NCBI RefSeq assembly: GCF_001422485.1
Contig: NZ_LMNF01000001.1
Location: 255,900 to 319,899 of the forward strand
DNA from: Agreia sp. Leaf283
GTDB lineage: Bacteria; Actinomycetota; Actinomycetes; Actinomycetales; Microbacteriaceae
Length of the DNA stretch: 64,000 nucleotides
Direction of reading: 5' to 3'
Shown: one piece after another, positions 5,497 to 57,745 of the stretch
Layout: every line of letters begins with the position of its first letter
Numbering within the stretch: position 1 is the stretch's first letter
The notes under the pieces: generated by a model
Told to the model about the DNA's origin: nothing
What the model saw: the letters and a program-made list of their open reading frames with translations, nothing else
The model's database searches: none
Made by a program: the position numbers and the translations under genes

Positions 5497-8400
5497 CTAG
5501 GCCCTCGCCGACCGCCGACGCCGGGCCGGGATCAGGAGTGCCGCGCCCGCGAGAAGCGCGAGGAGGGCCGACCCCCAGAGATTCTGGTCGACGGAAAGCC
5601 CCGTCGCCGGAAGCATCGTGTCGTCCGTTCCGGCGCCGGCCGCGTCCGCCGGTGGAACGACGATCCAGGGCGATCCACCCGAGCCGGGCAGAGTCGGACC
5701 AGGGCCCGGGTCCGTGCCCGGATCGGGAACCGTCGGAGCCAGCACGGTGACGGCCGCCTCTCCGATGATGCCGGAGCGTTCACCCGTGGCGCGCAGGGTG
5801 TGCGCTCCCACCGGCTGCTCGGCAGGCACGATGAATGTTCCCGTGAACGCGCCCGCACCGTCGCTCTGCACCTCGGCCAACGTGACCGGCTCGGAGAACA
5901 ACTGCACGGTCACCTTCTCGTCGGGGTCGAAGCCGGTGCCGCTCAGGGTGAAACTGCCACCGGCCCGAAGCTCGGTCGAGTCGAGTTCCAGGACGGCGGC
6001 CTCGACGGGAGGTGCCGCATCTGCAGTGATGGTGATGTCGTAGGTCGACATCGTCACGTGGTCCTGCGCACTGGCACGCAGGGTCAGGGTGGTCGGTCCA
6101 TTCTCTGCGAGAGCCACGGTGCGAGGCAGCGAGTCGTCGATGAGCACGTCGCCCACGAAGACGAGGCCGCTCGGCACGGCGGGGTCGGCATCGAACGTCG
6201 CGGTCGTCGCGCCCTCGGGCACGCTCACCCTGTAGGAGTAGACGCCACCCGCCAGCTGCGGGGTCAGGCTGCCGCCCTCGAACGACAGGCCCGCCAGATC
6301 CGACTCGGTGGCGAATGAGGTATCGGATGCGGTGTAGACGCCGAATACGCCGCCCACGTAGCTCGATCCGTTTCCCTGGAATCGAACAGTCACGACGGGG
6401 ATCTTCTCGCCTTGCGCGTCGAGCACGTAGGCACCGCTCTGATCGCGCTTGTAGCTGTCCTCTGCCTCGATGGAAGCCAGCACGGAGGCCGGAATCTCGT
6501 CGTACTGGATGTACCACGAGCTGGATCCATTGGCATTCGTCACGCGCTCGTTCTTCAGCAGAACGTCGTTGAGGTAGATATCGAACGTGCGCCCATTGTC
6601 ACCTCCGAAGTAGCGGACCCCGAGGTAGTTCTTCGGCAGCGACGGATCGACGATCATCTCGTACTGGAAGAACGCGTCGGTGGCCCTCTGCCCGTCTCGG
6701 TAGCCCTGGCCGAGGTGCACCCCGACGCCGGACTTGGCGAAGCGGTAGTTCTTGTCGGCCTCGCTGTTGTTGTTGTCGAACGAAGTGAGCGAATCGATCG
6801 TCGTCTCGTCGACCCGCAGCTGCTCCTTGTTCTGGCGGATCAGAGCCTGGGCCTGCGCCGAGTCGGGCTCGATCAGGTTCATGTAGGTGGCGTAACGCGC
6901 GTTGTAGAGGCTGTAATACGGCTCGAAGACGAGTGCGGCCGATGCGGCGTCCGTTCCCTGCAGAGCGAAGCGCATCGTCGTAAGGCCGTTGTTGTTGGCA
7001 CCATCGTCAAGCCGCACGAGGTTGTGGGCGATGTCGTCTCTGAATGCCGTCGCATCCGGAACGACGATGTCGTTGCTCACCGACTTGTCGGCCTGGCTCA
7101 TGCGCACGAGCACGCCGGCCACATAGTCGGCGTCGACGTTGTTGCGGTTGAGCTCGGTCGCGAGAAGCACGGGGCCGTACTTGAACGCGACCCAGTCCTT
7201 GTTCTCGGTGTTGTTGTCGACGGTCACCGACGCGGGAATCACGTAGCTGACCTGATCACCGGCGGAGACAGGCAGAACGGCGTAACCATCTGACGTGATC
7301 GTCGCGACATCGACGGGCGATCCGTTGACCGTGAGGGTCGGGGTCGAAGCGACCCACGCAGGCACCCGGAGCTTCAGGGTCGTTCCGTCGCGAAGGGCGC
7401 CGCCATCGATGGACTCGACGGTCAGGGAGACCGTGTCACTCGAGGGCACGTCGGCCACCTGCCGGAGCCGGAGGTTCTGCGCGTCGGAGGTGAACACGGA
7501 CGACCGGAACTGGTTGACGTAGACGGTGGAGTCCTTCGTGAAGTAGATCGAGTCACCGAGCTTCGTGAAACTCTCGGTGGCGGTGCCATGGTCGCACCAG
7601 AACTCGTCGAGTTCGCGCCCGAACACCTTGGCGTAGCCCGCCGCCTGGGGCTGGAAGTAGGTCATCATTCCGGTCTCGGGGTTCTGCGAGGCGAGGATGG
7701 TGTTGATGTAGGTCGACTCGTAGAAGTCGGCGTACTTCACGTCGGGTTCGACCTGGAAGAGAGCCTTCGAGAGCTTGAGCATGTTGTACTCGTTGCAGCC
7801 CTCCGAGGTGCTGTTCTCGCCGTACCCGGTGGTCGATCCGCTCGTGCCGTACTGGTAGAGGGTGTCGGCTTCGTGGAAGTGCTCCGAGTAGCTGTTGCCG
7901 CCGTTGGCGTAAGTGTGGTCGTCGACGACCATCTGCCAGAAGTTCTCGGCCGCGGTGCGGTACATGCCGAGGTTCGCCTTCTCCGTCTCGGTCAGCGTGG
8001 CGTAGAGGTTCGGATTCTCGGTGAACACGGTGTAGCGCTTGAGCGCTCCGATGAGCTTGGGGATGGTGGTGTTCGCGTGCTTTCCGTTCAGCACGTCCTG
8101 ACCGGCGGCCAGCTGCTGGAAGAGCGTCACCTCGTCGAAGTACTCCGCCGCGCGCTTGTGGGTCGGATCCTCGGTGATGGCGTAGAGCGAGTAGAGCGCC
8201 TCGTTCATTCCGCCGTACTCGGTGTTCAGCAGAGCGCCGGGGTTCGACTGTCGGTCTGCCCAGTTCGTGACCCAGGTGCCGAATCCGCTCGCCACCGCCA
8301 GCGCATCCGCCGACACATCCGCGGGGGCGTACTTGTGGGCGTCGAGCAGCCCCGCCTCGATCTTGTGCAGGTTGTAGAAGGGAACGAGCAGTCCGTCGCC

Positions 8401-9882
8401 ACCGCCCGGAAGCAGGTTCACCGAGAAGGGAGCCACGTAGCCGGCGTTCGCGGGATCGACCTGGGCATAGGCATCCTGCGCCTTCTTGAGACCGCTGACC
8501 GCGGTCGTGAGTTTGGCGAGGAGCGCCGCCTTGGTTGTCGCGTCGGTGGTCGTCGAATACGACTGCGACAGGGCCGAGATGTAGTGCCCGAAGAAGTGGC
8601 CCTGGAAACGGACGCCGCTCGTGCGCTCCCATCCGCCGTAGGGATCGGCCGTCACGGGCAGGCCCGCCTGTGTGTAGAAACCGTTGAGGAACTTCTCGGG
8701 GTCGAGGCTCAGCAGGTAGTCGATCATCTTCTGGTTGCCGTTGACGAGGTAGGGATCTTCGAGCAGTACCTGATCGAGCCCCGTCGCGTCGAGGAACGGC
8801 GATTCGGCGGATGCGTCGGTCGGCACGACCACCTCGAACGTCTTCGACACGGGGGCGCCCGATCCGTAGGTGGCCGACGCGGTGAGAACAACGGTCGCCG
8901 CATCATCGCCACGCACGACGGTGGCTGTGGCTCCGTCGACCGAAATGCGCTCAGGGTTCGACGACGACCAGGCGAAGCGGGTTCCATCGGATGCTTCGAC
9001 CGGCAGTGTGAAGGATGTCGCCGACTGGGCGGGGACGGTCACCGCATCGAGCGCCGCCTGAGCGATCGTCTGGGGGTCGAATGCGGAGTCGTTCTTCTGC
9101 GTCAGCGTCACGACATCGTCGATCGTGGCGACCGCGCTGTAGAGCGAGTAGTCGTCGACCAGTCCCGCCACGTGTCCGCCGTTGTAGATCGGGCCGTTGA
9201 AGCCGAGGGTCTTGACCGAGGTGTTCTCGGAGCCGAGTACGCCCGATGCCGCCGACGACACGGGAGTGGAGATCGTTGCGACCTGCCGCACTCCGTTGCG
9301 GTAGAAATCGACCTTCTTCGTGGCGCTGTCGTAGCTTGCCACCACGTGCGTCCACGCCCCGGACGGGAAGAAGTCGGAGCGGGGAGACTGAACGACCACC
9401 TTGTACGGCTGCCCACCCGAGGGCCCGATCGAGAGAGCGAGCGGGGTGCCGGCACCCTCCGAGGTGAGGTACCAGCCATCCGAGTTGTACACGGTCTTGC
9501 TCCAGGCGAACACCTGCTCGCCCGACATCGCGCCGTTCGGCTTGAACCAGAACGAGACCGTGAGGTCCTTCGGCTGCAGTGCCGAGTCGGTTCCGAGGTT
9601 GATCGCATTCGACCCGTCGAACGAGAAGGCCTGCCCGTCGATTCCGGAGTCGTACTTCTCGGTGCCCTTCTGCATCGTGGCGTTGCCGGCGCGCGTGCTC
9701 GAGTCGGACAGCGAGCCGTCGAACGTCAGGTCGAGCACCTTGGCTGCGTCGAGGGCCCCGGAGGCGACGGGCTCGGCCGCGACGAGCTGGGGCGCTCCCG
9801 TCGACAGCCCGAGGGCCAGAACGGTGGAGAGTGCGAGGGCGAGAGGCGTGCGAAGACGAGTTCGCGAGATGACGCCGGTCAT
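5497..9882 (-). CDS. Secreted, LPXTG-anchored GH127/DUF1680-type beta-L-arabinofuranosidase with LamG and Ig-like domains
   Basis: A 1461-residue exported enzyme. Residues 1-35 form a signal peptide. Residues about 48-260 are a LamG/concanavalin-like fold (LDLTFDGSLSD, VSFWFKPNGAM, THVVASYDS). About 268-353 is an Ig-like domain. About 360-900 is the DUF1680/GH127 alpha-barrel, with GVRFQGHFFGHYISAL, VPFYNLHKIEAGLLDA and TSEGCNEYNMLKLSKALF (Glu694, Cys696). The nucleophile region reads EFWCDHGTATESFTKLGDS, with Cys763 followed by Asp764, where relatives have Cys-Cys. C-terminal beta-sandwich and Ig-like modules (about 1198-1380) precede a Pro/Gly linker, LPATG (1424-1428), a hydrophobic helix and RRRR, a sortase sorting signal. 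The family releases L-arabinofuranose from plant arabinans or glycoproteins. The ATG at 9882 follows a good AAAGGAAAG ribosome site. GH127 versus GH146 cannot be settled by eye. Confidence 0.9.
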   Translation of the reverse strand: MTGVISRTRLRTPLALALSTVLALGLSTGAPQLVAAEPVASGALDAAKVLDLTFDGSLSDSSTRAGNATMQKGTEKYDSGIDGQAFSFDGSNAINLGTDSALQPKDLTVSFWFKPNGAMSGEQVFAWSKTVYNSDGWYLTSEGAGTPLALSIGPSGGQPYKVVVQSPRSDFFPSGAWTHVVASYDSATKKVDFYRNGVRQVATISTPVSSAASGVLGSENTSVKTLGFNGPIYNGGHVAGLVDDYSLYSAVATIDDVVTLTQKNDSAFDPQTIAQAALDAVTVPAQSATSFTLPVEASDGTRFAWSSSNPERISVDGATATVVRGDDAATVVLTASATYGSGAPVSKTFEVVVPTDASAESPFLDATGLDQVLLEDPYLVNGNQKMIDYLLSLDPEKFLNGFYTQAGLPVTADPYGGWERTSGVRFQGHFFGHYISALSQSYSTTTDATTKAALLAKLTTAVSGLKKAQDAYAQVDPANAGYVAPFSVNLLPGGGDGLLVPFYNLHKIEAGLLDAHKYAPADVSADALAVASGFGTWVTNWADRQSNPGALLNTEYGGMNEALYSLYAITEDPTHKRAAEYFDEVTLFQQLAAGQDVLNGKHANTTIPKLIGALKRYTVFTENPNLYATLTETEKANLGMYRTAAENFWQMVVDDHTYANGGNSYSEHFHEADTLYQYGTSGSTTGYGENSTSEGCNEYNMLKLSKALFQVEPDVKYADFYESTYINTILASQNPETGMMTYFQPQAAGYAKVFGRELDEFWCDHGTATESFTKLGDSIYFTKDSTVYVNQFRSSVFTSDAQNLRLRQVADVPSSDTVSLTVESIDGGALRDGTTLKLRVPAWVASTPTLTVNGSPVDVATITSDGYAVLPVSAGDQVSYVIPASVTVDNNTENKDWVAFKYGPVLLATELNRNNVDADYVAGVLVRMSQADKSVSNDIVVPDATAFRDDIAHNLVRLDDGANNNGLTTMRFALQGTDAASAALVFEPYYSLYNARYATYMNLIEPDSAQAQALIRQNKEQLRVDETTIDSLTSFDNNNSEADKNYRFAKSGVGVHLGQGYRDGQRATDAFFQYEMIVDPSLPKNYLGVRYFGGDNGRTFDIYLNDVLLKNERVTNANGSSSWYIQYDEIPASVLASIEAEDSYKRDQSGAYVLDAQGEKIPVVTVRFQGNGSSYVGGVFGVYTASDTSFATESDLAGLSFEGGSLTPQLAGGVYSYRVSVPEGATTATFDADPAVPSGLVFVGDVLIDDSLPRTVALAENGPTTLTLRASAQDHVTMSTYDITITADAAPPVEAAVLELDSTELRAGGSFTLSGTGFDPDEKVTVQLFSEPVTLAEVQSDGAGAFTGTFIVPAEQPVGAHTLRATGERSGIIGEAAVTVLAPTVPDPGTDPGPGPTLPGSGGSPWIVVPPADAAGAGTDDTMLPATGLSVDQNLWGSALLALLAGAALLIPARRRRSARA

Positions 9883-9901
9883 AGTTCTTTCCTTTTGTCG
9901 A

Positions 9902-9915
9902 CAGCAACGTTGCTG
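9902..9915. promoter_or_regulatory. LacI/GalR-type operator candidate (perfect palindrome)
   Basis: CAGCAACGTTGCTG is a perfect 14-bp palindrome located 20 bp upstream of the start codon of the anchored arabinofuranosidase. The central CG with flanking AA/TT matches the general form of LacI-family operators in actinobacteria. No regulator gene adjoins it. Confidence 0.5.
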
Positions 9916-9954
9916 AGGTACCAGGTCAATTCAGAAGCGCTCGATGGTGCACGA

Positions 9955-9968
9955 TGTGAGCGGTAACA
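9955..9968. promoter_or_regulatory. LacI-type operator candidate (TGTGAGCGGTAACA)
   Basis: An imperfect dyad (10 of 14 positions symmetric) that closely resembles the classical lac O1 sequence with one base missing. It lies between the likely promoter and the start codon of the arabinofuranosidase gene. Confidence 0.5.
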
Positions 9969-10010
9969 ATGACCATAGGGTATGCGTTATGAGACAGCAA
10001 TGATCAAAAT

Positions 10011-39409: not shown

Positions 39410-40003
39410 ATGAGTTCAGATGCACCCGGGTTCGACCGTTCCCTCTCGCTGATCGCCGAAGAGCTCGGATCGGTCGTCGAGCGGCTCACCGCCGTCGATG
39501 ACGCCTCCTCGGATCACGACGGCGCCGAGGCGCTGGTCGACGAGATCGCGCGAGCCCGCAGGGTCTTCGTTCACGGCGCCGGCCGCTCGGGGCTCGCCCT
39601 GCGCATGACGGCGATGCGCCTGATGCACCTCGGCCTCGAGGTGCACGTCGTCGGAGAGACCACGACACCGGCGATCGCCGAGGGCGACGTGCTCCTCACC
39701 GCCAGCGGTTCCGGCACGACCGAGAGCATCGTGCGCGCCGCCCGCTCCGCGATCGAGGCAGGCGCCCGTGTCGCACTCATCACGACGGCGACGGAGTCTC
39801 CGCTCTCCGAACTCGCATCGGCGACCCTCGTCGTGCCCGCCGCGGCCAAACTCGACAGGTCGATGACGGCATCCGCCCAGTATGCCGGCGGCCTCTTCGA
39901 GCAGACGGTCGTGCTGGTCGGCGACGCCCTCTTCCACACCGTGTGGCAGCGCTCGGGCCGCACGGCCGACGAGCTCTGGCCGCGACACGCCAACCTCGAG
40001 TGA
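39410..40003 (+). CDS. hxlB: 6-phospho-3-hexuloisomerase
   Basis: A 197-residue SIS-domain isomerase of the ribulose monophosphate pathway that converts 3-hexulose 6-phosphate to fructose 6-phosphate. The blocks RVFVHGAGRSGLALRMTAMR, EVHVVGETTTPAIAEGDVLL and SGSGTTESIVRAA are the usual sugar-phosphate site. ASAQYAGGLFEQTVVLVGD near the C-terminus is typical of PHI. The ATG at 39410 has GGAGA close upstream. It is followed after 52 bp by hxlA, giving the order hxlB-hxlA. Together they fix or detoxify formaldehyde. Confidence 0.93.
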   Translation: MSSDAPGFDRSLSLIAEELGSVVERLTAVDDASSDHDGAEALVDEIARARRVFVHGAGRSGLALRMTAMRLMHLGLEVHVVGETTTPAIAEGDVLLTASGSGTTESIVRAARSAIEAGARVALITTATESPLSELASATLVVPAAAKLDRSMTASAQYAGGLFEQTVVLVGDALFHTVWQRSGRTADELWPRHANLE

Positions 40004-40055
40004 CGCCGATCGATTCGACTTTCCCCTCCCTCCACCCGCAACACGAAGGAACACA

Positions 40056-40679
40056 ATGAAACTGCAGTTCGCCATGGACACCCTCACCACCGAAGCCGCC
40101 CTCGAGCTGGCCGCGGCGGCCGCGCCGCACGTCGACATCCTCGAGCTCGGCACCCCGCTCATCAAGAGCGCCGGCCTCTCGGCCGTCACGGCCATCAAGG
40201 CCGCTCACCCCGACAAGATCGTCTTCGCCGACCTCAAGACGATGGATGCCGGAGAGCTCGAGGCCGACATCGCGTTCACCGCGGGAGCCGACCTCGTGAC
40301 CGTGCTCGGCACCGCCGGCGACAGCACGATCGTCGGCGCGGTCAAGGCCGCGAAGAAGCACGGCAAGGGCATCGTCGTCGACCTGATCGGCGTCGCGAAC
40401 AAGTCCGAGCGCGCCCAGCAGGTCGTCGCCCTGGGCGCCGAGTTCGTCGAGATGCACGCGGGCCTCGACGAGCAGGCCGAGGAGGGCTTCACGTTCTCGA
40501 CCCTGCTCGACGACGGCAAGGCATCCGGCGTGCCGTTCTCGGTGGCCGGTGGCATCAACGCCTCGACCATCGCCTCCGTTCAGCAGTCGGGCGCCCAGGT
40601 CGCCGTCGCCGGAGGCGCCATCTACGGAGCCCCCGACGTGGGAGCCGCCGCCGCAGAGCTGCGCGCCGCCATCGTCTGA
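40056..40679 (+). CDS. hxlA: 3-hexulose-6-phosphate synthase
   Basis: A 207-residue OMP-decarboxylase-superfamily aldolase that joins formaldehyde to ribulose 5-phosphate. It starts KLQFAMDTLTTEAALELA. Key blocks are VDILELGTPLIKSAG, IVFADLKTMDAGELEAD (the Asp-x-Lys-x-x-Asp catalytic motif) and FSVAGGINASTI with VAVAGGAIYGA for the phosphate. The length is normal for the family. The start at 40056 follows GAAGGA. It ends just before the second copy of the 57-bp hairpin repeat. Confidence 0.95.
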   Translation: MKLQFAMDTLTTEAALELAAAAAPHVDILELGTPLIKSAGLSAVTAIKAAHPDKIVFADLKTMDAGELEADIAFTAGADLVTVLGTAGDSTIVGAVKAAKKHGKGIVVDLIGVANKSERAQQVVALGAEFVEMHAGLDEQAEEGFTFSTLLDDGKASGVPFSVAGGINASTIASVQQSGAQVAVAGGAIYGAPDVGAAAAELRAAIV

Positions 40680-40700
40680 CGCACGGCAGCAACACGAAAC

Positions 40701-40757
40701 GCGGGTGTTCCCGCCTGCCGCGGTGGTTCAACCACTGCGCTGGGCGGGAACACCCGC
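40701..40757. repeat. 57-bp double-hairpin repeat, copy 2
   Basis: Outer arms GCGGGTGTTCCCGCC (40701-40715) and GGCGGGAACACCCGC (40743-40757) are fully complementary. The inner stem is GTGGT/ACCAC (40723-40727, 40731-40735) with a 3-nt loop. It lies between the convergent stops of hxlA and nrdF and could end transcription from both sides. Relative to copy 1 the stems differ by paired changes. Confidence 0.8.
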
Positions 40758-40780
40758 GTTCGTTGTGTGCAGGGCTGGGC

Positions 40781-41758
<978 letters not shown>

Positions 41759-41769
41759 CTATTTTCTTT

Positions 41770-41859
41770 CGTTCACTGAGCTTGTCGATGTGGAGCGTGG
41801 GTGTGGATGCCCGCAGGCAAGGCTCAGGGAACGACTCGTTCCTTGAGCCTGTCGAAAGG
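41770..41859. repeat. Degenerate REP-like units between nrdE and nrdF
   Basis: A decayed unit (CGTTCACTGAGCTTGTCGAT) lies at 41770-41789. A decayed inverted pair covers about 41818-41859, with GGCTCAGGGAACG facing CGTTCCTTGAGCC. It fills most of the gap between nrdE and nrdF and may give them different message stability. Confidence 0.65.
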
Positions 41860-41868
41860 CCGGGAGCG

Positions 41869-44034
41869 CTAGAGCGCGCAGCTCACGCATCCCTCGATCT
41901 CGGTGCCCTCGAGGGCCATCTGGCGGAGACGGATGTAGTAGATCGTCTTGATGCCCTTGCGCCATGCGTAGATCTGCGCCTTGTTGATGTCGCGGGTGGT
42001 CGCCGTGTCCTTGAAGAACAGCGTCAGCGAGAGACCCTGGTCGACGTGCTGCGTTGCCGCGGCGTAGGTGTCGATGATCTTCTCGGCGCCGATCTCGTAC
42101 GAGTCCTGGTAGTACTCCAGGTTGTCGTTCGTCATGAATGGGGCCGGGAAGTAGACGCGACCCAGCTTGCCTTCCTTGCGGATCTCGATCTTCGCCGCGA
42201 TCGGGTGGATCGATGCGGTGGAGTTGTTGATGTACGAGATCGATCCGGTGGGCGGCACGGCCTGCAGGTTCTGGTTGTAGATGCCGTGCTCCATGACGGA
42301 TGCCTTCAGCTGGTCCCAGTCGGCCTGTGTCGGGATGTGCACCCCGGCCGTGTCGAAGAGTTCGCGGACGCGGTCGGTGGCGGGCACCCACTCGGCGTCG
42401 GTGTACTTGTCGAAGAACGCGCCGGATGCGTAGGTCGAGTCCTCGAAACCCTCGAACTTGACGCCGCGCTCGATGGCGATGGCATTCGAGGCGCGCAGGG
42501 CGTGGAACAGCACCGTGTAGAAGTAGATGTTCGTGAAGTCGATGCCCTCTTCGGAGCCGTAGAAGATGCGCTCACGAGCGAGGTAGCCGTGCAGGTTCAT
42601 CTGGCCCAGGCCGATGGCGTGCGACTTGTCGTTGCCGTCTTCGATGGAGCGCACCGACGTGATGTGGCTCATGTCGGAGACTGCGGAGAGACCCCGGATC
42701 GCCGTCTCGACCGTGAGGCCGAAGTCGGGCGCATCCATCGCCAGGGCGATGTTCATCGAGCCCAGGTTGCACGAGATGTCTTTGCCGATCGTGTCGTATG
42801 ACAGGTCTTCGTTGTACGTGGTCGGGGTGTTGACCTGAAGGATCTCGGAGCACAGGTTCGACATGTTGATGCGGCCCTTGATGGGGTTCGCCGCATTCAC
42901 GGTGTCTTCGAACATGATGTACGGGTAGCCCGACTCGAACTGGATCTCGGCGATCGTCTGGAAGAAGTCGCGGGCCTTGATCTTGGTCTTCTTGATGCGC
43001 GAGTCGTCGACCATCTCGTGGTACTTCTCGCTGACCGAGATGTCGCCGAAGGGCACGCCGTAGACGCGCTCGACGTCGTACGGCGAGAAGAGGTACATGT
43101 CTTCTCCCTTCTTGGCGAGCTCGAACGTGATGTCGGGAACGACGACGCCGAGGGAGAGCGTCTTGATGCGGATCTTCTCGTCGGCGTTCTCGCGCTTGGT
43201 GTCGAGGAAGCGCATGATGTCGGGGTGGTGGGCGTGCAGGTACACGGCACCGGCACCCTGGCGCGCGCCCAGCTGGTTGGCGTAGCTGAAGGAGTCTTCG
43301 AGCAGCTTCATCACGGGGATGATTCCCGAGGACTGGTTCTCGATCTGCTTGATCGGCGCACCCGACTCGCGGATGTTCGACAGCAGCAGTGCCACCCCGC
43401 CGCCGCGCTTGGAGAGCTGGAGGCTGGAGTTGATTGCGCGGGAGATGGACTCCATGTTGTCTTCGATGCGGAGAAGGAAGCAGGAGACGAGCTCGCCTCG
43501 CTGGGCCTTGCCCGTGTTGAGGAACGTGGGGGTGGCCGGCTGGAAGCGGCCGCCGATGATCTCGTTGACGAGGTTGATCGCGAGCTGCTCGTTGCCGCCG
43601 GCGAGGCCGAGGGACGTCATCACGACGCGGTCTTCGAAGCGCTCGAGGTAGCGCTTTCCGTCGAACGTCTTCAGCGTGTACGAGGTGTAGTACTTGAACG
43701 CGCCGAGGAAGGTGTCGAAGCGGAACTTCTTCGAGTAGGCGAGGTCGTTGAGCTTGGTGATGAACTCGAACGAGTACTGCTCGATGGTCTCGGCCTCGTA
43801 GTACTCCTTCTCGACGAGGTAGTCGAGGCGCTCGCGCAGCGAGTGGAAGAAGACCGTGTTCTGGTTGACGTGCTGCAGGAAGAACTCGCGCGCCGCCTCT
43901 TTGTCTTTATCGAACTGGATCTCGCCGTTCGGGCCGTAGAGGTTCAGCATCGCGTTCAGCGAGTGGTAATCCATCTGCACCTGACCCGGGGTCTCGATGC
44001 GGGTGTTCTCTAGTGATGCTGTGGGGACGTCCAA
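41869..44034 (-). CDS. nrdE: Class Ib ribonucleotide reductase large subunit
   Basis: A 721-residue R1E protein if started at TTG 44034, the same length as Mycobacterium tuberculosis NrdE. It reduces ribonucleoside diphosphates. Visible blocks are [31 protein letters not shown] (first active-site Cys), [25 protein letters not shown] and [13 protein letters not shown]. The C-terminal GCVSCAL is the redox pair recharged by NrdH. The start is uncertain: TTG 44034 lies in the end of nrdI and is preceded by GAAGGA at a long spacing, while the first ATG is at 43974, next to [12 protein letters not shown] where the conserved region begins. The N-terminal ATP-cone seen in NrdA is absent, as expected for class Ib. 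Confidence 0.95.
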
Positions 44035-44456
44035 AACGCTTCCAATCCTTCGTGGACGGCGGTGACGTCGTCCGGGGTTCCGAATACTTCGAATTTGTAG
44101 AGGTGGGGAACTTTGCACTTGCGGGAGACGATGTCGCCGGCCTTGCAGAAGGCTTCCCCGAAGTTGGTATTGCCTGCAGAGATCACTCCGCGGATGAGGG
44201 ATCTGTTGTGCTCGTCGTTGAGGAACGAGATCACCTGTTTGGGAACCGCCCCGCCCTCGGTGCCCCCACCGTAGGTGGGAAGCACGAGAACGTAGGGTTC
44301 GGTGGCCATCAGTCTCGGCTGCCACTTGTGCAGTGGGATGCGATCGGCCGGCATCCCGAGCTTCTCGATGAAGCGATGGGTATTGCCCGACACCGACGAG
44401 AAGTAGACCAGGTTCGACAGGGTGGGGATCGTGTCGACCACCGCTGCGAGGGACAC
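44010..44456 (-). CDS. nrdI: Flavodoxin-like NrdI
   Basis: A 148-residue flavodoxin-like protein that activates the manganese cofactor of NrdF. The flavin loop is [19 protein letters not shown], followed by [12 protein letters not shown] and [19 protein letters not shown], all standard for NrdI. The GTG at 44456 starts 7 bp after the nrdH stop. Its end overlaps the likely nrdE start. Longer in-frame starts inside nrdH are not needed. Confidence 0.94.
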
Positions 44457-44463
44457 GGGGTGA

Positions 44464-44697
44464 CTAGCCGGCGAGACGGGCCAGCTCATCGATCTTGTCG
44501 GGGCGGAAACCCGACCAGTGGTCGTTGTCGGTGATGACGACGGGCGCCTGCAGGTAGCCCAGCTCCTTGACGGCGGCCAGGGCCTTCTCGTCGACCGACA
44601 CGTCGAAGATCTCGTACTCGAGGCCCTTGTTCTCGAGGGCGCGGTAGGTGGCCGTGCACTGCACGCAGGAGGGCTTCGTGTAAACCATGATTGCCAT
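44464..44697 (-). CDS. nrdH: NrdH glutaredoxin-like electron donor
   Basis: A 77-residue thioredoxin-reductase-dependent redoxin. The active site is CVQC in [30 protein letters not shown] is the C-terminal stretch that separates NrdH from glutaredoxins. It reduces the NrdE C-terminal disulfide. It is the first gene of nrdHIEF, with an approximately 110-nt leader below two NrdR boxes. Confidence 0.96.
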
Positions 44698-44808
44698 GGA
44701 AATGCGCCTTTCAGACGAAGGAGAAGGTGGGATGTTCTGTATTGGTTTGTGGTACTGGCGGGGTGTCTCGGGGGCCGTGAGGCCCCGTCACCGTGCCGGG
44801 AGTTCAAT

Positions 44809-44819
44809 ACTACATATAG
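44809..44819 (-). promoter_or_regulatory. NrdR box, proximal
   Basis: On the minus strand CTATATGTAGT matches 10 of 11 core positions of the NrdR consensus CwAtATaTwGw. An overlapping TAGTAT could be the -10 element, consistent with repression. Confidence 0.7.
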
Positions 44820-44840
44820 GGATGGGTCTCTTCGACTGCC

Positions 44841-44851
44841 ACTAGATGAAG
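44841..44851 (-). promoter_or_regulatory. NrdR box, distal
   Basis: On the minus strand CTTCATCTAGT matches the NrdR core at 8 of 11 positions and is flanked by ACA. It starts exactly 32 bp from the proximal box, the normal three-turn NrdR spacing. Confidence 0.65.
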
Positions 44852-44867
44852 TGTTACACCCGTGTAA

Positions 44868-44956
44868 TTCTCCACACGAAGTGCACACCCTTATCAACCA
44901 TTTCTCCACAAGAAAAATGCCTGAAATTCACGGTTGATCTCACCACTTGTGGATAA
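44868..44956. promoter_or_regulatory. Cluster of DnaA-box-like sites upstream of nrdHIEF
   Basis: TTCTCCACA occurs at 44868-44876 and 44902-44910, and a consensus TTATCCACA on the minus strand at 44948-44956. A weaker TTATCAACC is at 44891-44899. The sites lie upstream of both NrdR boxes. No origin-linked gene (dnaA, dnaN) is nearby, so this is more likely a DnaA control region than an origin. Confidence 0.5.
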
Positions 44957-44994
44957 CTCGGGCTGCGAAAAACTTTCCAAAAAAGATGCGGCGA

Positions 44995-46401
44995 TCATTC
45001 CGCTCGGCGTGTCGCAACGCGTCTTCCCACCAGACGCCCGACACCCCAGAGCACCACTCCGATACCGAGCAGCACACCCGCGATCTCGTACTGCTCCGCT
45101 GGCCTTCCCGACGACCAGGGCAGCACGAGGTAGACGCACACGATCACGCCCAGAACCGGAAGCGCCGTGGGAGTTCTGAAGTGCTTGTGCTCGACCTTGT
45201 CGCGCCTCAGCACGAGCACGCTCACGTTCACGAGAGCGAAGACGGCGAGCAGCAGAAGAGAGGTCGTTCCGCCGAGCAGGATGACGAGCGGGTTCTCGGG
45301 ATCGATCGACACGTAGGCGGTCAGGGCGAGAGCGATGGCCGTGGTGAACAGGATGGCGGCGAACGGCGTCTGGCGCTTTGTGTGCACCTTCGACAGGAAC
45401 GACGGCAGCACGCCCCTCTTGCTCATGCCGTAGAGCAGACGGCTCGCCATCATCATGTTGATGAGGGCGCTGTTGCCGACCGCGAAGAGGGAGATGAACG
45501 GGATCAGGGCCGAGATCGGGAAGTCGGGCGCCGCGGTCTGCACGACGGTCACGAGCGGGGTGTCGTTGCCCGCCAGCTCGCCCACGGGCACGACGGCCAC
45601 GGCGATGATCGCGACGACCACGTAGACGACGGCCGTGATGGTGAGGCCCGAGAGCAATGCACGGGGGAAGATGCGGGAGGGGTTCTTCACCTCTTCGACC
45701 ATGTTCACCGAGTCCTCGAAGCCGACCATGGCGAAGAACGCCAGCGACGTCGCCGTGCTGATGGCCAGGAAGAGACCCTTGTCTTCGGGCGTCTCGAACG
45801 CGACGACGCGCGAGAAGTCGGCGTTGCCGCCGAAGATGGCGAAGCTGCCGATGAGGATCACGAGCAGCAGGCCCGACAGCTCGACGAGGGTCAGCACCAC
45901 GTTGAGCCCCACACTCTCGGCGACCCCGCGCAGGTTGACCGCCATGACCAGCAGCATGAACAGCAGTGCCACGACCAGCAGGATGCCCGGATTGGAGCTG
46001 TCGAGGCCGAACCCGGTGGCGAAGTTGCTGGCGAACGCGCCCGATGCGGCCGAGGCCGAGGTGAGCCCCGAGCACATCACCGTGAAGCACACGATGAACG
46101 TCACGAAATGGATGCCGAAGGCCTTGTGCACATACAGCGCCGCTCCGGCGGCCTGCGGGTACTTGCCCACCAGCTCGAGATAGGAGCAAGCGGTGAGCAT
46201 GGCCACGCCGAAGGCCACGAGGAAGGGCAGCCACGCGGCTCCCCCGACCTCGGCCGCGACCTGGCCCGTGAGCGCGTAGATGCCCGTGCCGAGAATGTCG
46301 CCGACGATGAACAGCAGCAGCAGCTTGGGGCCCATCACCCGCTTGAGTTCGGGCTGCGCGGAGTCGCCGTCGCCGGCCTTCCTGTCATCGAGAACCGTCA
46401 T
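44995..46401 (-). CDS. APC-family amino acid permease
   Basis: A 468-residue transporter with about 12 hydrophobic segments. The first helix region LLLLFIVGDILGTGIYALTG contains the APC substrate-binding G-x-G bend. FFAMVGFEDSVNMVEEVKNP is the conserved TM6 and following loop of the family. The amino acid cannot be determined. ATG 46401 is chosen over GTG 46410 because GGGAG lies 8 bp before it. It follows the S9 peptidase by 71 bp on the same strand, which suggests linked peptide breakdown and amino-acid uptake, though the permease may also be independent. Confidence 0.92.
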   Translation of the reverse strand: MTVLDDRKAGDGDSAQPELKRVMGPKLLLLFIVGDILGTGIYALTGQVAAEVGGAAWLPFLVAFGVAMLTACSYLELVGKYPQAAGAALYVHKAFGIHFVTFIVCFTVMCSGLTSASAASGAFASNFATGFGLDSSNPGILLVVALLFMLLVMAVNLRGVAESVGLNVVLTLVELSGLLLVILIGSFAIFGGNADFSRVVAFETPEDKGLFLAISTATSLAFFAMVGFEDSVNMVEEVKNPSRIFPRALLSGLTITAVVYVVVAIIAVAVVPVGELAGNDTPLVTVVQTAAPDFPISALIPFISLFAVGNSALINMMMASRLLYGMSKRGVLPSFLSKVHTKRQTPFAAILFTTAIALALTAYVSIDPENPLVILLGGTTSLLLLAVFALVNVSVLVLRRDKVEHKHFRTPTALPVLGVIVCVYLVLPWSSGRPAEQYEIAGVLLGIGVVLWGVGRLVGRRVATRRAE

Positions 46402-53333: not shown

Positions 53334-54110
53334 TCAGGTGGCGGCGAGCTTTCGCACGCCGTCGAACAGGTAGCGGTAGCTGAGGCCCGCGATCAGGCCG
53401 CCGACGATCGGGAAGACGATGAACACCCAGACCTGCGCGAGCCAGTCGCCTCCGCCGAACACGGCCGTCGCGATGGAGCGGGCCGGGTTGATCGACGCGT
53501 TGTCGACGGGGATGGCGATGAGCAGCAGCAGGGTGAGCGTGAAGCCGATCGCGATCGGGGCGAAGCCCTGGTGAGCGCGCGAGTGGGTCACGCCGAGGAT
53601 CACGAACAGGAACAGGCAGGTGATGACGATCTCGATCGCGATGGCCGAGCCGAGCCCGAAACCGCCTGGCGAGTGCTCGCCGAAGCCGTTCGACACGAAT
53701 CCGCCCGCGACGGCCTTGTCGAGGAAGCCCTCGGGGCCGCCCGACGCGATCGCGAACACCGCGAGCGCCCCGAGCACCGCGCCGACCAGCTGGGACACGA
53801 TGTAGATCGGCACGTCCTTCCAGGCGAAGCGGCCGGCCGCGGCGAGTCCGATGCTCACGGCGGGGTTGAAGTGGCCTCCGGAGATGGGGCCGAACGCGTA
53901 CGCGCCGATCATCACCGTGAGGCCGAGGGCGATGGCCACGCCGAGAAAGCCCACGCCGAGCGGGTTCGTGCCGTCGGCGTCGCCGAAGAAGGCGGAGAAG
54001 GTGGCGGTGCCGACGAGGCCGAAGACCAGAAGGAACGTTCCGGCGATCTCGGCGATGATCTTGGCCGCGAGCGACGGCTCGGCGGGTGCGGGGGCATCGG
54101 GAAAGGACAT
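53334..54110 (-). CDS. MIP-family aquaporin (AqpZ-like)
   Basis: A 258-residue channel with six membrane segments and the two half-helix motifs: HFNPAVS and SINPARS. GVAIALGLTVMIGAYAFGPISGG leads to the first motif. The arginine after the second NPA is the selectivity-filter Arg. The short loops suggest a water channel rather than a glycerol facilitator. The ATG at 54110 follows GGAGGAA. It starts 28 bp after the stop of the MscS/CNBD channel gene, which follows the cyclase-like gene, so a water channel is encoded together with a tension-type channel and a putative nucleotide signal source. Confidence 0.93.
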   Translation of the reverse strand: MSFPDAPAPAEPSLAAKIIAEIAGTFLLVFGLVGTATFSAFFGDADGTNPLGVGFLGVAIALGLTVMIGAYAFGPISGGHFNPAVSIGLAAAGRFAWKDVPIYIVSQLVGAVLGALAVFAIASGGPEGFLDKAVAGGFVSNGFGEHSPGGFGLGSAIAIEIVITCLFLFVILGVTHSRAHQGFAPIAIGFTLTLLLLIAIPVDNASINPARSIATAVFGGGDWLAQVWVFIVFPIVGGLIAGLSYRYLFDGVRKLAAT

Positions 54111-54138
54111 GGGTTCCTCCAGGGCTGCGGGACGGGCG

Positions 54139-55560
54139 TCAGAGTGCGATGGTTCCCGACGAGGCCTGCGCGGCAGCGAGTGCGGCCGCGGCGAGTGAAC
54201 GCCGGTTGTCGAGCGTCTCGCCGATGCGGCGAGCGAGCGACGGGTGCTTGTGCACCATGTCGTCGACGACCGAACTGGGCACACGCAGAACGGTCACCGG
54301 GCGACTGGCGACCACCACGGTGGTGGTCTTCTGCCTCGTGAGCGCGGCTTGTCCGATGAACTCGCCTCGCTCGACGACGCCGATGCGCAGCCTCCCCGCC
54401 TCGTACGGTACCGACAGCTCGAGCACGCCACTAAGAACGACACGCACACAGTCCGGAACAATTCCCGCTTTCTGAAGTATTTCTCCCGCACCGTACTGCT
54501 CGATGCGACACGAATCGGCGACCGCGTCGAGATCCTCCTGCGGGAGGTTGAGCCCGGGGCCGACGAATCCCAGTGCCTCGATCACGTTCTCTCGCGTGTT
54601 CACCGGATCTGTCGTTTCGCCGTCGAGGCCGAGATCGTGCCGGCGCGCGGCGTACCAGAGCCAGGCGAGGAAGAGCGAGACGGTCTCGCCCTCGACCGCG
54701 GGACTGGTCACCGGCAGGCTCACCGTGTACGAGGCCTTGCCCTCGTAGCTGACACTCGGCCTGCTGCGGCTGTCGAGCTGCGGCAGCGCCGACGCGGTCT
54801 CGGAGAGCATGGTCAGAACGACATGCGGGGCATCATCCGTGGTGAACGTGACCGGCACCGTGGCCACATAGCCGTCGACCGGCTGGCTCAGGTTGGTGAA
54901 CGACCCGCCCGCCAGCGACGAGTTGGGCATGATCTGGATTCCGTTGCCCGTGTCGATGTGCACCGAGCGCCAGTTGACCTCGACGACCCGGCCCCTGACA
55001 TCCCCCACGTCGAGGTAGTCGCCGAGCTTGAACGGCTGCTCGAAGAGCAGCAGCAGGCCCGAGATGATCGACCCCACGGCGTTCTGCAACGCCAGGCCGA
55101 TGACGATGGATGTGACACCCAGCGCCGCGAAGAGACCCCCGACATCCGCGCCCCACACCCACGAGAACAGGATGGCGAGACCCACCAGAATGAGCGCGAG
55201 CCGCGCGAGGGTGACGAAGATGGAGGGCAGGCGTTCCCGCCAGCTGCCTTCGCGCGCGTTGCCGAAGATGGCCACGTTGAAGGCGGAGAGCACGAGCAGG
55301 ATGAGCAGGAAGCCGAGCACCGTGCCGACGACGCGCACCCAGGTGAGATCGAAGCTCTGCTGCGATGCGAAGGTGAGCAGCGCGAAGATCGCGGCGACGG
55401 GAACCACGAAGTTGCGCAGGAGTCGAACGGGCTTGGCGGCGGGTGATTCGCGTCGCTGCAGCACCCCGTAGATCTCGGTGAGCACGACGAGCAGAACGGG
55501 CAGGGCGATGACCACGCCCAGGGCCCAGCCGAACCACGGTTCGCTCCAGAGATCGATCAC
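54139..55560 (-). CDS. MscS-family channel with C-terminal cyclic-nucleotide-binding domain
   Basis: A 473-residue protein. Four hydrophobic segments cover about 10-155. The pore helix region is GLFAALGVTSIVIGLALQNAVGSIISG, followed by the MscS beta domain (PFKLGDYLDVGDVRGRVVEV, IQIMPNSSLAGGSFTN). Residues about 335-445 are a CNBD-type jelly roll: RIEQYGAGEILQKAG, VRVVLSGVLELSV, and the phosphate-binding cassette GEFIGQAALTRQKTTTVVVA. In this cassette the usual Arg of the PRTAT pattern is Lys411. The family corresponds to bacterial cyclic-nucleotide-gated (bCNG) MscS channels. The start is GTG at 55560, 7 bp after the stop of the cyclase-like gene, with GAGGGG upstream. Confidence 0.92.
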   Translation of the reverse strand: MIDLWSEPWFGWALGVVIALPVLLVVLTEIYGVLQRRESPAAKPVRLLRNFVVPVAAIFALLTFASQQSFDLTWVRVVGTVLGFLLILLVLSAFNVAIFGNAREGSWRERLPSIFVTLARLALILVGLAILFSWVWGADVGGLFAALGVTSIVIGLALQNAVGSIISGLLLLFEQPFKLGDYLDVGDVRGRVVEVNWRSVHIDTGNGIQIMPNSSLAGGSFTNLSQPVDGYVATVPVTFTTDDAPHVVLTMLSETASALPQLDSRSRPSVSYEGKASYTVSLPVTSPAVEGETVSLFLAWLWYAARRHDLGLDGETTDPVNTRENVIEALGFVGPGLNLPQEDLDAVADSCRIEQYGAGEILQKAGIVPDCVRVVLSGVLELSVPYEAGRLRIGVVERGEFIGQAALTRQKTTTVVVASRPVTVLRVPSSVVDDMVHKHPSLARRIGETLDNRRSLAAAALAAAQASSGTIAL

Positions 55561-55567
55561 GGCGTCG

Positions 55568-57745
55568 TCATCCCCTCTGCTGCGAGATCTGCCAGACCGA
55601 CTGCGGGCCGGACTTCGTCTCGATCGTGCCCACCTCGGTCATGTTCGGCAGCTCGCCCACCTTGTCGCGCACCCGCTGGCTGATGAACACGCCGGGCTTG
55701 CCGGCCAGCGCCTGCACCCTGTTGGCGATACTCACCGCGTCGCCCCACATGTCGTACGCGATCGACGAGCGGCCGACCAGTCCGCTGGTGACCGTGCCCG
55801 TGTCGATTCCCGCGCGCAGCGAGAGGGTCGCCCCGTGCTGGGCGTTGAACCGCTCCACGATGCGGATCATCTCGAGGGCGAAGTCCACCGTGCGGCGAGC
55901 GCTGTCGACCCGGGGAACGATCAGTCCGCAGCTGGCGAGGTATCCCTCGCGCAGGGTGCGCACCTTCTCGATGCCCTTCTCCTGTGCGGCCTCGTCGAAC
56001 TGGCGCACGAGGTCGTTGAGCAGGGCGAGCTCCTTCTCCGCTCCCCGCCCGGCCGCGAAGTCGTCGAAGCCCACGAGGTCGGCGAACAGCACCGACACGT
56101 CTTGATGGTCCTCTGCGATCGTCTCGTCGCCGTCGCGATAGCGTCGCGCGACGGACTCGGGCATGAGCGTGTGCAGGATCTTGTCGTTCTCGGCCTGCTG
56201 CTCGTCGATGAGCGCCTGCTTCACCTGGAGGCTCCGACTCATGTCGTTGAACGCCGACGCGAGGTCGCCGAACTCGTCGCGGGTGTTCGCCGCCACCTCC
56301 ACGCCGAGATCTCCCCCGGCCACCTGTCGGACGGCACCCACGAGTCGGCGCACCGGGCGGGTGAAGACCTGCGCGAGGAGAAGGGAGAGCAGGGCCACGA
56401 CCACGAGCAGCGCCGCGATCGACAGCACGAGGTTGCGCGTGAAGTCGGCCACCGGCGCGAAGGCCTCCGCCGCGGTGATGCTCGCCACGATGACCCACTG
56501 CTGGCCCTTGATGTCGAGGGGGCCGTAGGCGGCGAGGGTCTCCCTGTCGAGGTAGCTCTGCGCCACCATCACACCGGTCTTGCCCTGCTGCGCCTCGCGC
56601 ACCGGGGCCGTGTCGACCGTCTGCAGCTCGACCGTTCCCTTCACGTCGACGGCGCGCTGAGCGAGCTCGGGCGACAGGCCGCCCGAGATGGCACGTTCGC
56701 GATACTGCTCGGGGTCGTCGATCAGCAGACGGGACACCGACCGCATGGTGTCGTCGGGGCCCACGATGTACGCCTCACCGGTGTCGCCGAGTCCGTCCTC
56801 CTTCCACTGCTGATCGCCGGTCATCACGTCGTTGATCGCGTTGATCGGCAGTTGCACGGCCAGCACGCCGACGACGTTTCCGTCCTGTCCGATCGGGGAG
56901 ACTCCCCACGCCGTCGGCACACCAAGGCTCGGCTGATAGCGCTCGAAGTCGGTGACCTTCACGAAGTCGACGACGTTCGAGTTCAGCGCCTCGGTGTAGG
57001 CCTCGGCGAGATTCGTGCCCTTATAGGGCCCCGTGTTCACATTCGAGCCGAGGTCGACGCCCTTGTAGACCGAATAGACGATGTTGCCCTGGGTGTCGAG
57101 AATGAGCGCGTCCTCGTACTGGTACAGCTGCGCCATTTCGCGGAAGTACGGGTTGTACTTCTCGTTGACGGCCGACCAGGCGCTGCCGTCGCCCGCATTC
57201 TCGACCTCTGCGGCCGCATCGAAGTCACCCGCCGGCGGAACGGTGTAGTAGTTCTGGAGATACGTCTCGGCGCTCGTCTGCGGCAGGAAGGCGTCGGAGA
57301 CACTCGTGGCGCCGGTGCGTTCGTTGAGCTGGGGGATGAAGCTGTCGTCGTAGTACGTCGCGACGGCGGCCGTCTGGGCGGGGTCGGTGGGCTGGTTCTG
57401 CAGCTCCTGGAAGGCCGAGGCGAACTCCGCGGCCGCCTGGTTGCCCGTCGCGCCCTGCGAGTCGAGATTCAACCCGATCTCGATGTTGGTGAACAGCGAC
57501 TCGATCGCATCCGATTTCGCCTCGCGCAGGTTCGTCATGCGGTCGAACTCGGCCTGCCGCAGGCTGTCGGTGCCGGAGGTGTAGCCGATGTAGCCGACGA
57601 TCAGGGTCGACCCGATGCTCACGCCGAGCAGCATGATCAGCAGCTTCGACTGGATGCTCAGCCCGCGTCGTACCAGCGTTCCCGCCGACGAGCCGAGTCG
57701 TGCGGCTCGCCTCCGGCTGTTCGAGAGAGAGTTATCCCCTGACAT
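55568..57745 (-). CDS. Membrane sensor with extracellular domain, HAMP and class III nucleotide-cyclase-like domain
   Basis: A 725-residue receptor. Transmembrane helix 1 is at about 33-55, a large extracellular sensor (dCACHE-like) at about 56-435, helix 2 at about 438-460, HAMP at 460-512 and a short coiled coil to about 540. Residues 545-725 are a class III cyclase domain (VSVLFADLVGFDDFAAG, GIDTGTVTSGLVGRSS, YDMWGDAVSIANR). Compared with mycobacterial Rv1625c, Asp556, Asp665 and Arg676 are kept. The substrate Lys is Arg596, the second metal Asp is Glu600 (RTLRE instead of KTIGD), and the transition-state Asn is Ser672. Activity or substrate may therefore be altered. It is the first gene of the row with the MscS-CNBD channel and aquaporin. 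Confidence 0.9.
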   Translation of the reverse strand: MSGDNSLSNSRRRAARLGSSAGTLVRRGLSIQSKLLIMLLGVSIGSTLIVGYIGYTSGTDSLRQAEFDRMTNLREAKSDAIESLFTNIEIGLNLDSQGATGNQAAAEFASAFQELQNQPTDPAQTAAVATYYDDSFIPQLNERTGATSVSDAFLPQTSAETYLQNYYTVPPAGDFDAAAEVENAGDGSAWSAVNEKYNPYFREMAQLYQYEDALILDTQGNIVYSVYKGVDLGSNVNTGPYKGTNLAEAYTEALNSNVVDFVKVTDFERYQPSLGVPTAWGVSPIGQDGNVVGVLAVQLPINAINDVMTGDQQWKEDGLGDTGEAYIVGPDDTMRSVSRLLIDDPEQYRERAISGGLSPELAQRAVDVKGTVELQTVDTAPVREAQQGKTGVMVAQSYLDRETLAAYGPLDIKGQQWVIVASITAAEAFAPVADFTRNLVLSIAALLVVVALLSLLLAQVFTRPVRRLVGAVRQVAGGDLGVEVAANTRDEFGDLASAFNDMSRSLQVKQALIDEQQAENDKILHTLMPESVARRYRDGDETIAEDHQDVSVLFADLVGFDDFAAGRGAEKELALLNDLVRQFDEAAQEKGIEKVRTLREGYLASCGLIVPRVDSARRTVDFALEMIRIVERFNAQHGATLSLRAGIDTGTVTSGLVGRSSIAYDMWGDAVSIANRVQALAGKPGVFISQRVRDKVGELPNMTEVGTIETKSGPQSVWQISQQRG

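Follow-up and report, generated by a model that had tools for sequence, protein, structure and literature searches.

Do three neighboring genes of Agreia sp. Leaf283 make up one signaling module? In the stretch of 64,000 nucleotides analyzed here (the window), a receptor gene with a class III cyclase domain is followed by a gene for an MscS-family channel with a C-terminal cyclic-nucleotide-binding domain (CNBD) and then by one for an AqpZ-like aquaporin, and the first-pass annotation read the three as an osmotic module in which the product of the receptor gates the channel and the aquaporin is a working third component. The three genes were confirmed on the same strand, in this order and with these domains (table 1). 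The receptor has two transmembrane (TM) stretches, its AlphaFold2 model has a mean pLDDT of 79.5, and its cyclase fold is predicted to be intact by this model and by fold matches; the Guanylate_cyc match scores 120 bits against a cut-off of 21.9. Domain and fold matches give the channel the composition expected of a bCNG protein, that is, an MscS pore/beta domain with a C-terminal CNBD. A promoter and terminator scan of the locus predicted no terminator and a single promoter-like site, which lies inside the channel gene. Elsewhere in the window, positions 40001–46000 and 6001–10000 have a G+C content of 0.62–0.65, below that of the remainder.

Table 1. Features of the locus (positions in the window).
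Feature	Position	Strand	Basis
Receptor with degenerate class III cyclase domain (pseudo-cyclase)	55568..57745	-	Domain search, AlphaFold2, active-site residues, TM scan
Receptor architecture: extracellular double-Cache-like sensor, HAMP, coiled coil, cyclase domain	55568..57745	-	
Cyclase domain (receptor residues 544-720)	55586..56116	-	Alignment, including with AC9
Extracellular sensor (receptor residues about 54-437)	56435..57586	-	Domain search, AlphaFold2, TM scan
MscS-family channel with C-terminal CNBD	54139..55560	-	Domain and fold matches
Channel CNBD (channel residues 338-450)	54211..54549	-	Alignments, fold match
AqpZ-like aquaporin, same-strand neighbor judged to be outside the unit	53334..54110	-	Domain search, neighborhood, genome searches

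Genomic Distribution of the Receptor and Channel Genes

Loci encoding a relative of the channel were collected from a scan of named genomes, which gave 26, and from wider genome searches, which gave the others, and their flanking regions were fetched. Each of the 64 fetched loci (61 distinct, the window included) has a receptor homolog directly upstream of the channel gene and in the same orientation, which rules out a chance adjacency; the genes for receptor and MscS/CNBD channel are a genuine unit of two. In a set of 36 loci, the channel start codon falls from 16 bases before to 40 bases after the receptor stop codon. The idea of the first-pass annotation that receptor and channel are a functional pair is thus supported by an adjacency that is conserved beyond close strains. 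Pairwise distances among the receptors correlate with those among the channels (r = 0.93 for 1,431 pairs from 54 rows), a value for which common descent alone could suffice.

Named genera that carry the pair include Agreia, Herbiconiux, Plantibacter, Subtercola, Agromyces, Microbacterium, Frigoribacterium, Schumannella, Occultella, Micropruina, and Humibacillus. Homologs within the main clade span several families with a lowest identity of about 41%, and three genomes of another class encode pair homologs at 27–34% identity. When 100 genomes of the family were searched, the channel and the receptor queries retrieved the same ten genomes, and none of the 100 had one gene of the pair alone at the thresholds used. 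Among 396 genomes of the phylum, the channel profile matched 16 and the receptor profile 17; in the 17th receptor genome the layout is the same, with the channel beside the receptor cut by a contig end. An order-level search with the channel profile matched 16 of 297 genomes. The pair is nonetheless patchy, because neither gene occurs in the other genome that was sampled from the genus of the window.

Several loci depart from the simple arrangement. Two genomes (G751 and G483) have two copies of the pair each (L108 and L109; L094 and L095). In a group of distant relatives (L099, L100, L101, L240, and L241) the order is cyclase–channel–cyclase, and the two flanking receptor genes differ from each other. 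In a Herbiconiux metagenome bin the reading frame is broken within the CNBD of the channel (L043:3809-5205). On plasmid p1 of Sinorhizobium sp. B11, a gene annotated as an adenylate/guanylate cyclase diverges from an MscS-CNBD gene (L228:2019-5155; the cyclase was read but not scored).

The Aquaporin Gene as a Neighbor

The adjacency that holds for receptor and channel does not extend to the aquaporin, which was found within the fetched flanks, some of them short, of only 6 of the 61 distinct loci. It lies downstream and on the same strand in five, namely the window, Agreia sp. PsM10, and three Plantibacter (there at a distance of about 830 bp), and in one Humibacillus an aquaporin with 40% identity lies upstream of the pair. 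In Agreia bicolorata, the pair is 89–90% identical to that of the window, a CBS-like gene immediately follows the channel gene, and no close copy of the aquaporin was found in the genome, where the best match has 38% identity. Herbiconiux ginsengi does encode a copy with 79% identity, located away from the pair, and some aquaporin match was present in 14 of the 16 genomes searched.

An osmotic module of three genes, one of them a functional aquaporin, would draw on the 28 bp gap, the shared strand, and the downstream copies in Agreia and Plantibacter. We give it almost no credence, and these comparisons appear to have largely refuted it already, with 55 of the 61 distinct loci lacking an aquaporin in their flanks and with Agreia bicolorata lacking a close copy; for the same reasons the aquaporin was rejected as the third part of the unit. 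To judge from the neighborhoods, it looks like a bystander beside the pair. Clustering of the neighboring ORFs was also considered as a source of a third conserved partner, and it yielded only an ABC-transporter and CBS/gamma-lyase neighborhood of Microbacteriaceae, plus ORFs antisense to the pair genes themselves. Any osmotic role for the pair itself would have the MscS fold as its sole basis.

Active-Site Residues of the Pair Cyclases

Active-site positions were assigned by alignment to the window and agree with an alignment to AC9, in which the Asp of C1 stands opposite E600. The tally covers 57 distinct main-clade domains, after removal of L037, in which a contig end cuts the cyclase, and of the duplicates L106, L116, and L117; six distant ORFs from L099–L101 were tallied separately. 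Set against the two metal-binding Asp residues of catalytic class III cyclases, the window has D556 at the first site (D1) and E600 at the second (D2); set against the transition-state Asn and Arg, it has S672 and R676. Arg (R596) replaces the base-recognizing Lys, and the base-recognizing Asp is kept (D665).

Across the 57 pair cyclases, D1 is D in 42, E in 13, T in one, and V in one. D2 is never Asp, being occupied by nine other residues (E 13, G 13, N 11, S 6, Q 5, A 3, K 3, T 2, and R 1), and is non-acidic in 44. The Lys site is R in 56 and H in one, the base Asp is kept in all 57, the Asn site varies (N 32, S 20, D 3, T 1, and E 1), and so does the Arg site (R 39, Q 15, A 1, L 1, and K 1). 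Both metal sites are acidic in 13 of the 57 domains, and just three combine Asp at D1, Asp or Glu at D2, and the transition-state Asn and Arg. The active site is incomplete in the cyclases of the distant relatives too, through different losses; in L100 and L101 the first cyclase retains a GD motif without D1, and the losses in the second are greater.

As a control we used the other cyclases encoded in 28 genomes that carry the pair. These genomes gave 138 Guanylate_cyc matches, 32 from pairs and 106 others, and the latter correspond to 102 loci (four loci hold two matches, and one alignment was used per locus). The loci were taken in two lots, the first 40 picked mainly among the stronger matches and the other 62 added to them. 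Asp occupies D2 in all 40 loci of the first lot and 61 of the 62 in the second (101 of 102 in total), it occupies D1 in all 40 and 59 of the 62 (two gaps and one H), and the transition-state Arg is present in all 40 and 61 of the 62 (one gap). Because 101 of the 102 other cyclase loci in the same genomes keep the Asp at D2, its loss belongs to the pair. The transition-state Asn varies in the controls (present in 24 of 40 and 48 of 62), as does the base-site Lys, and therefore the metal site alone is decisive.

From these residues we infer that the pair receptor makes no cyclic nucleotide, and the claim that its product gates the channel is not supported. In the window copy itself, Glu at D2 is an acidic substitute, so that this one copy might still be active. 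Between the window and two Agreia relatives, dN/dS values of 0.055 and 0.075 show, by this measure, that purifying selection retains the cyclase domain between close strains. Against Herbiconiux the value is 0.43, above the 0.24 of the channel body, and the constraint seems to be weaker there.

The reading in which the receptor is a working though unusual cyclase and its cyclic nucleotide gates the adjoining channel, with no part for the aquaporin, accordingly has to explain 57 domains without Asp at D2, few of them acidic at both metal sites, and variation at the Asn and Arg sites as well. It can point to the domain order and the strict pairing, to the Asp and Glu at the metal sites of the window, to the invariant base Asp, and to the content of the genomes; in 7 of the 15 pair genomes searched, the CNBD of the channel is the sole cNMP_binding match and no class III cyclase domain was found other than that of the receptor, as a private messenger circuit predicts. 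We regard this reading as distinctly unlikely. A search of the 15 pair genomes that was limited to class I cyclases found none.

Another way to rescue catalysis would be for the pseudo-cyclase to form a heterodimer, as in mammalian C1/C2, in which a different class III cyclase from the same cell supplies the other half. The distant relatives with two different cyclase-like genes around the channel would fit such an arrangement, as would the window's genome, which encodes a second cyclase that retains D1, D2, Asn, and Arg (G000:C1:1179866-1180348, L126) and, about 2 kb from it, a CRP-like protein with the cassette Arg (G000:C1:1182302-1182562, L197). Cyclic nucleotide may therefore exist in this cell. 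However, the domain of the pair is the only Guanylate_cyc match in 14 of the 28 pair genomes, so that no other class III cyclase is there to complement the receptor, and the flanking cyclases of the distant relatives, as read here, do not jointly make up a full active site. We consider the heterodimer highly improbable.

The CNBD of the Channel

In place of the usual phosphate-binding cassette, the CNBD of the window has the motif G403-x-x-x-L407-T-R409-Q. An alignment of 54 rows, which omits L116, L117, L106, L099–L101, L043, L037, L094, and L085, gives the corresponding pattern as G-[QLHV...]-x-x-L-[TS]-R-[EQ], with G403 conserved in 53, L407 in 52, R409 in 51, and A418 in all 54 rows. The phosphate-binding Arg is absent throughout a 36-locus alignment of pair CNBDs. 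The controls do not set the pair apart in this respect, since the Arg is present in just 3 of 15 other CNBDs of 15 pair genomes and in none of four proteobacterial MscS-CNBDs, leaving 12 of 15 and 4 of 4 without it. We therefore dropped its loss as main evidence; because most of the compared CNBDs lack the Arg, its absence is by itself no argument against cyclic nucleotide binding. The CNBD is also the least conserved part of the channel, with a mean pairwise identity of 37% compared with 69% for the pore helix and beta domain.

These features bear on the possibility that the pair works as a ligand switch, in which the cyclase domain binds a purine nucleotide without turnover or the CNBD accommodates a nucleoside or another non-cyclic ligand. 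Metabolic state and an external cue would then be sensed together. The base pocket of the cyclase domain retains R596 and D665 almost throughout, and the CNBD has near-invariant residues of its own in L407 and R409. The CNBs of a trypanosome PKA likewise have the CNB fold without the phosphate Arg and bind purine nucleosides (PMC10959531), though they belong to a kinase regulatory subunit. A structure of such a nucleoside-binding CNB is among the fold matches of the channel. As a complete account, we find the ligand switch rather unlikely.

Variability of the Sensor Domain

Among the receptor domains, the extracellular sensor varies most, with a mean pairwise identity of 46% compared with 53% for the cyclase domain, and this variability fits cues that may differ between strains. 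Between the window and Agreia sp. PsM10 (L033), the sensor at 56601–57600 is 80–87% identical and its flanks 92–98%, and dS is 0.46 in the sensor and 0.17 in the cyclase domain. This pattern points to an exchange of the sensor module between these close strains.

Relation to Known Systems

Rv2434c of Mycobacterium tuberculosis is probably an MscS-CNBD protein, and Rv2435c/Rv2434c, candidate orthologs of the window pair, are probably the same pair; their consecutive locus numbers match the adjacency in the window. Nine genomes of one genus (g92), presumably Mycobacterium, carry the pair at 41–51% identity, and the five that were searched have 14–19 PF00211 cyclase matches each. Rv2435c has a double Cache domain (PMC4822843), comparable to the double-Cache-like sensor of the window receptor, is listed as a mammalian-type cyclase (PMC3961136), and has had its expression measured (PMC3938503); Rv2434c is given as a membrane protein that possibly binds cyclic nucleotide or is involved in cAMP signaling (PMC11205783), and both are mentioned in a 2004 cyclase survey (PMC2447327). 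Dead class III cyclases as such are already known, because the mycobacterial cyclase Rv1359 has been thought inactive for want of a metal Asp (PMC3961136). A limited literature search found no description of a cyclase–MscS/CNBD pair, and we make no claim to be the first to describe one.

The window channel resembles bCNG channels, papers on which are cited in PMC4560390, in having a CNBD after its MscS pore and beta domain. It differs in the dedicated receptor gene alongside and probably also in its lack of a canonical phosphate-binding cassette. The receptor shares its fold and family score with class III receptor cyclases such as mycobacterial Cya/Rv1625c and AC9 but differs from them in the replacement of the second metal Asp and the base-site Lys. 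Pycsar defense systems likewise pair a cyclase fold with a CNBD-membrane protein; unlike these, the window pair has an extracellular sensor, an MscS effector, and a degenerate cyclase. PADLOC matches of the pair to Pycsar are weak (E values of 1e-3 to 2e-7), and phage defense was set aside as a first-choice reading.

A Proposed Mechanism and Its Implications

Starting from the pairing, its breadth, and the loss of the metal Asp, we think it about an even chance that the pseudo-cyclase receptor sets its partner channel by contact or through a ligand other than a cyclic nucleotide, the two forming a dedicated sensor–channel unit. A cue would bind the extracellular double-Cache-like domain, and the HAMP domain and coiled coil would relay the change inward. 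The cyclase-fold domain, its metal site lost, would then serve as the signal-bearing domain and might alter the channel by way of the CNBD; direct contact is the likeliest route, perhaps with a nucleotide that is bound but left uncleaved. In response, the tension threshold of the channel or its flow of ions or solutes might shift, and the aquaporin would be a local neighbor.

Several points weigh against this contact or ligand model. The low conservation of the CNBD is the opposite of what a tight docking surface would predict, and the residues of the cyclase domain could be read as less than fully dead, with Glu at D2 in the window (13 of the 57 domains have it) and with D1, the base Asp, and the Arg often kept. 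The higher dN/dS of the cyclase domain against Herbiconiux, the absence of the CNBD Arg from most control CNBDs, and the second cyclase of the window's genome count against the model as well. Somewhat short of even is the chance we give to the more general proposal that a family of non-catalytic cyclase-fold receptors docks on an equally altered CNBD and gates an MscS-type channel without a second messenger, across Actinomycetota and with a distant branch that has two flanking pseudo-cyclases.

Overall, the locus holds a widespread receptor–channel pair with a dead-looking cyclase rather than a module of messenger and water flow. Because nearly half of the genomes tested for both have no class III cyclase domain and no CNBD outside the pair, it offers an unusually closed test system. 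If the proposal is true, annotations of these genes as adenylate cyclase and cAMP-gated channel mislead, possibly in mycobacteria too, and the pair of a harmless member of the Microbacteriaceae would allow one to test the direct setting of a tension-type channel by an extracellular cue.
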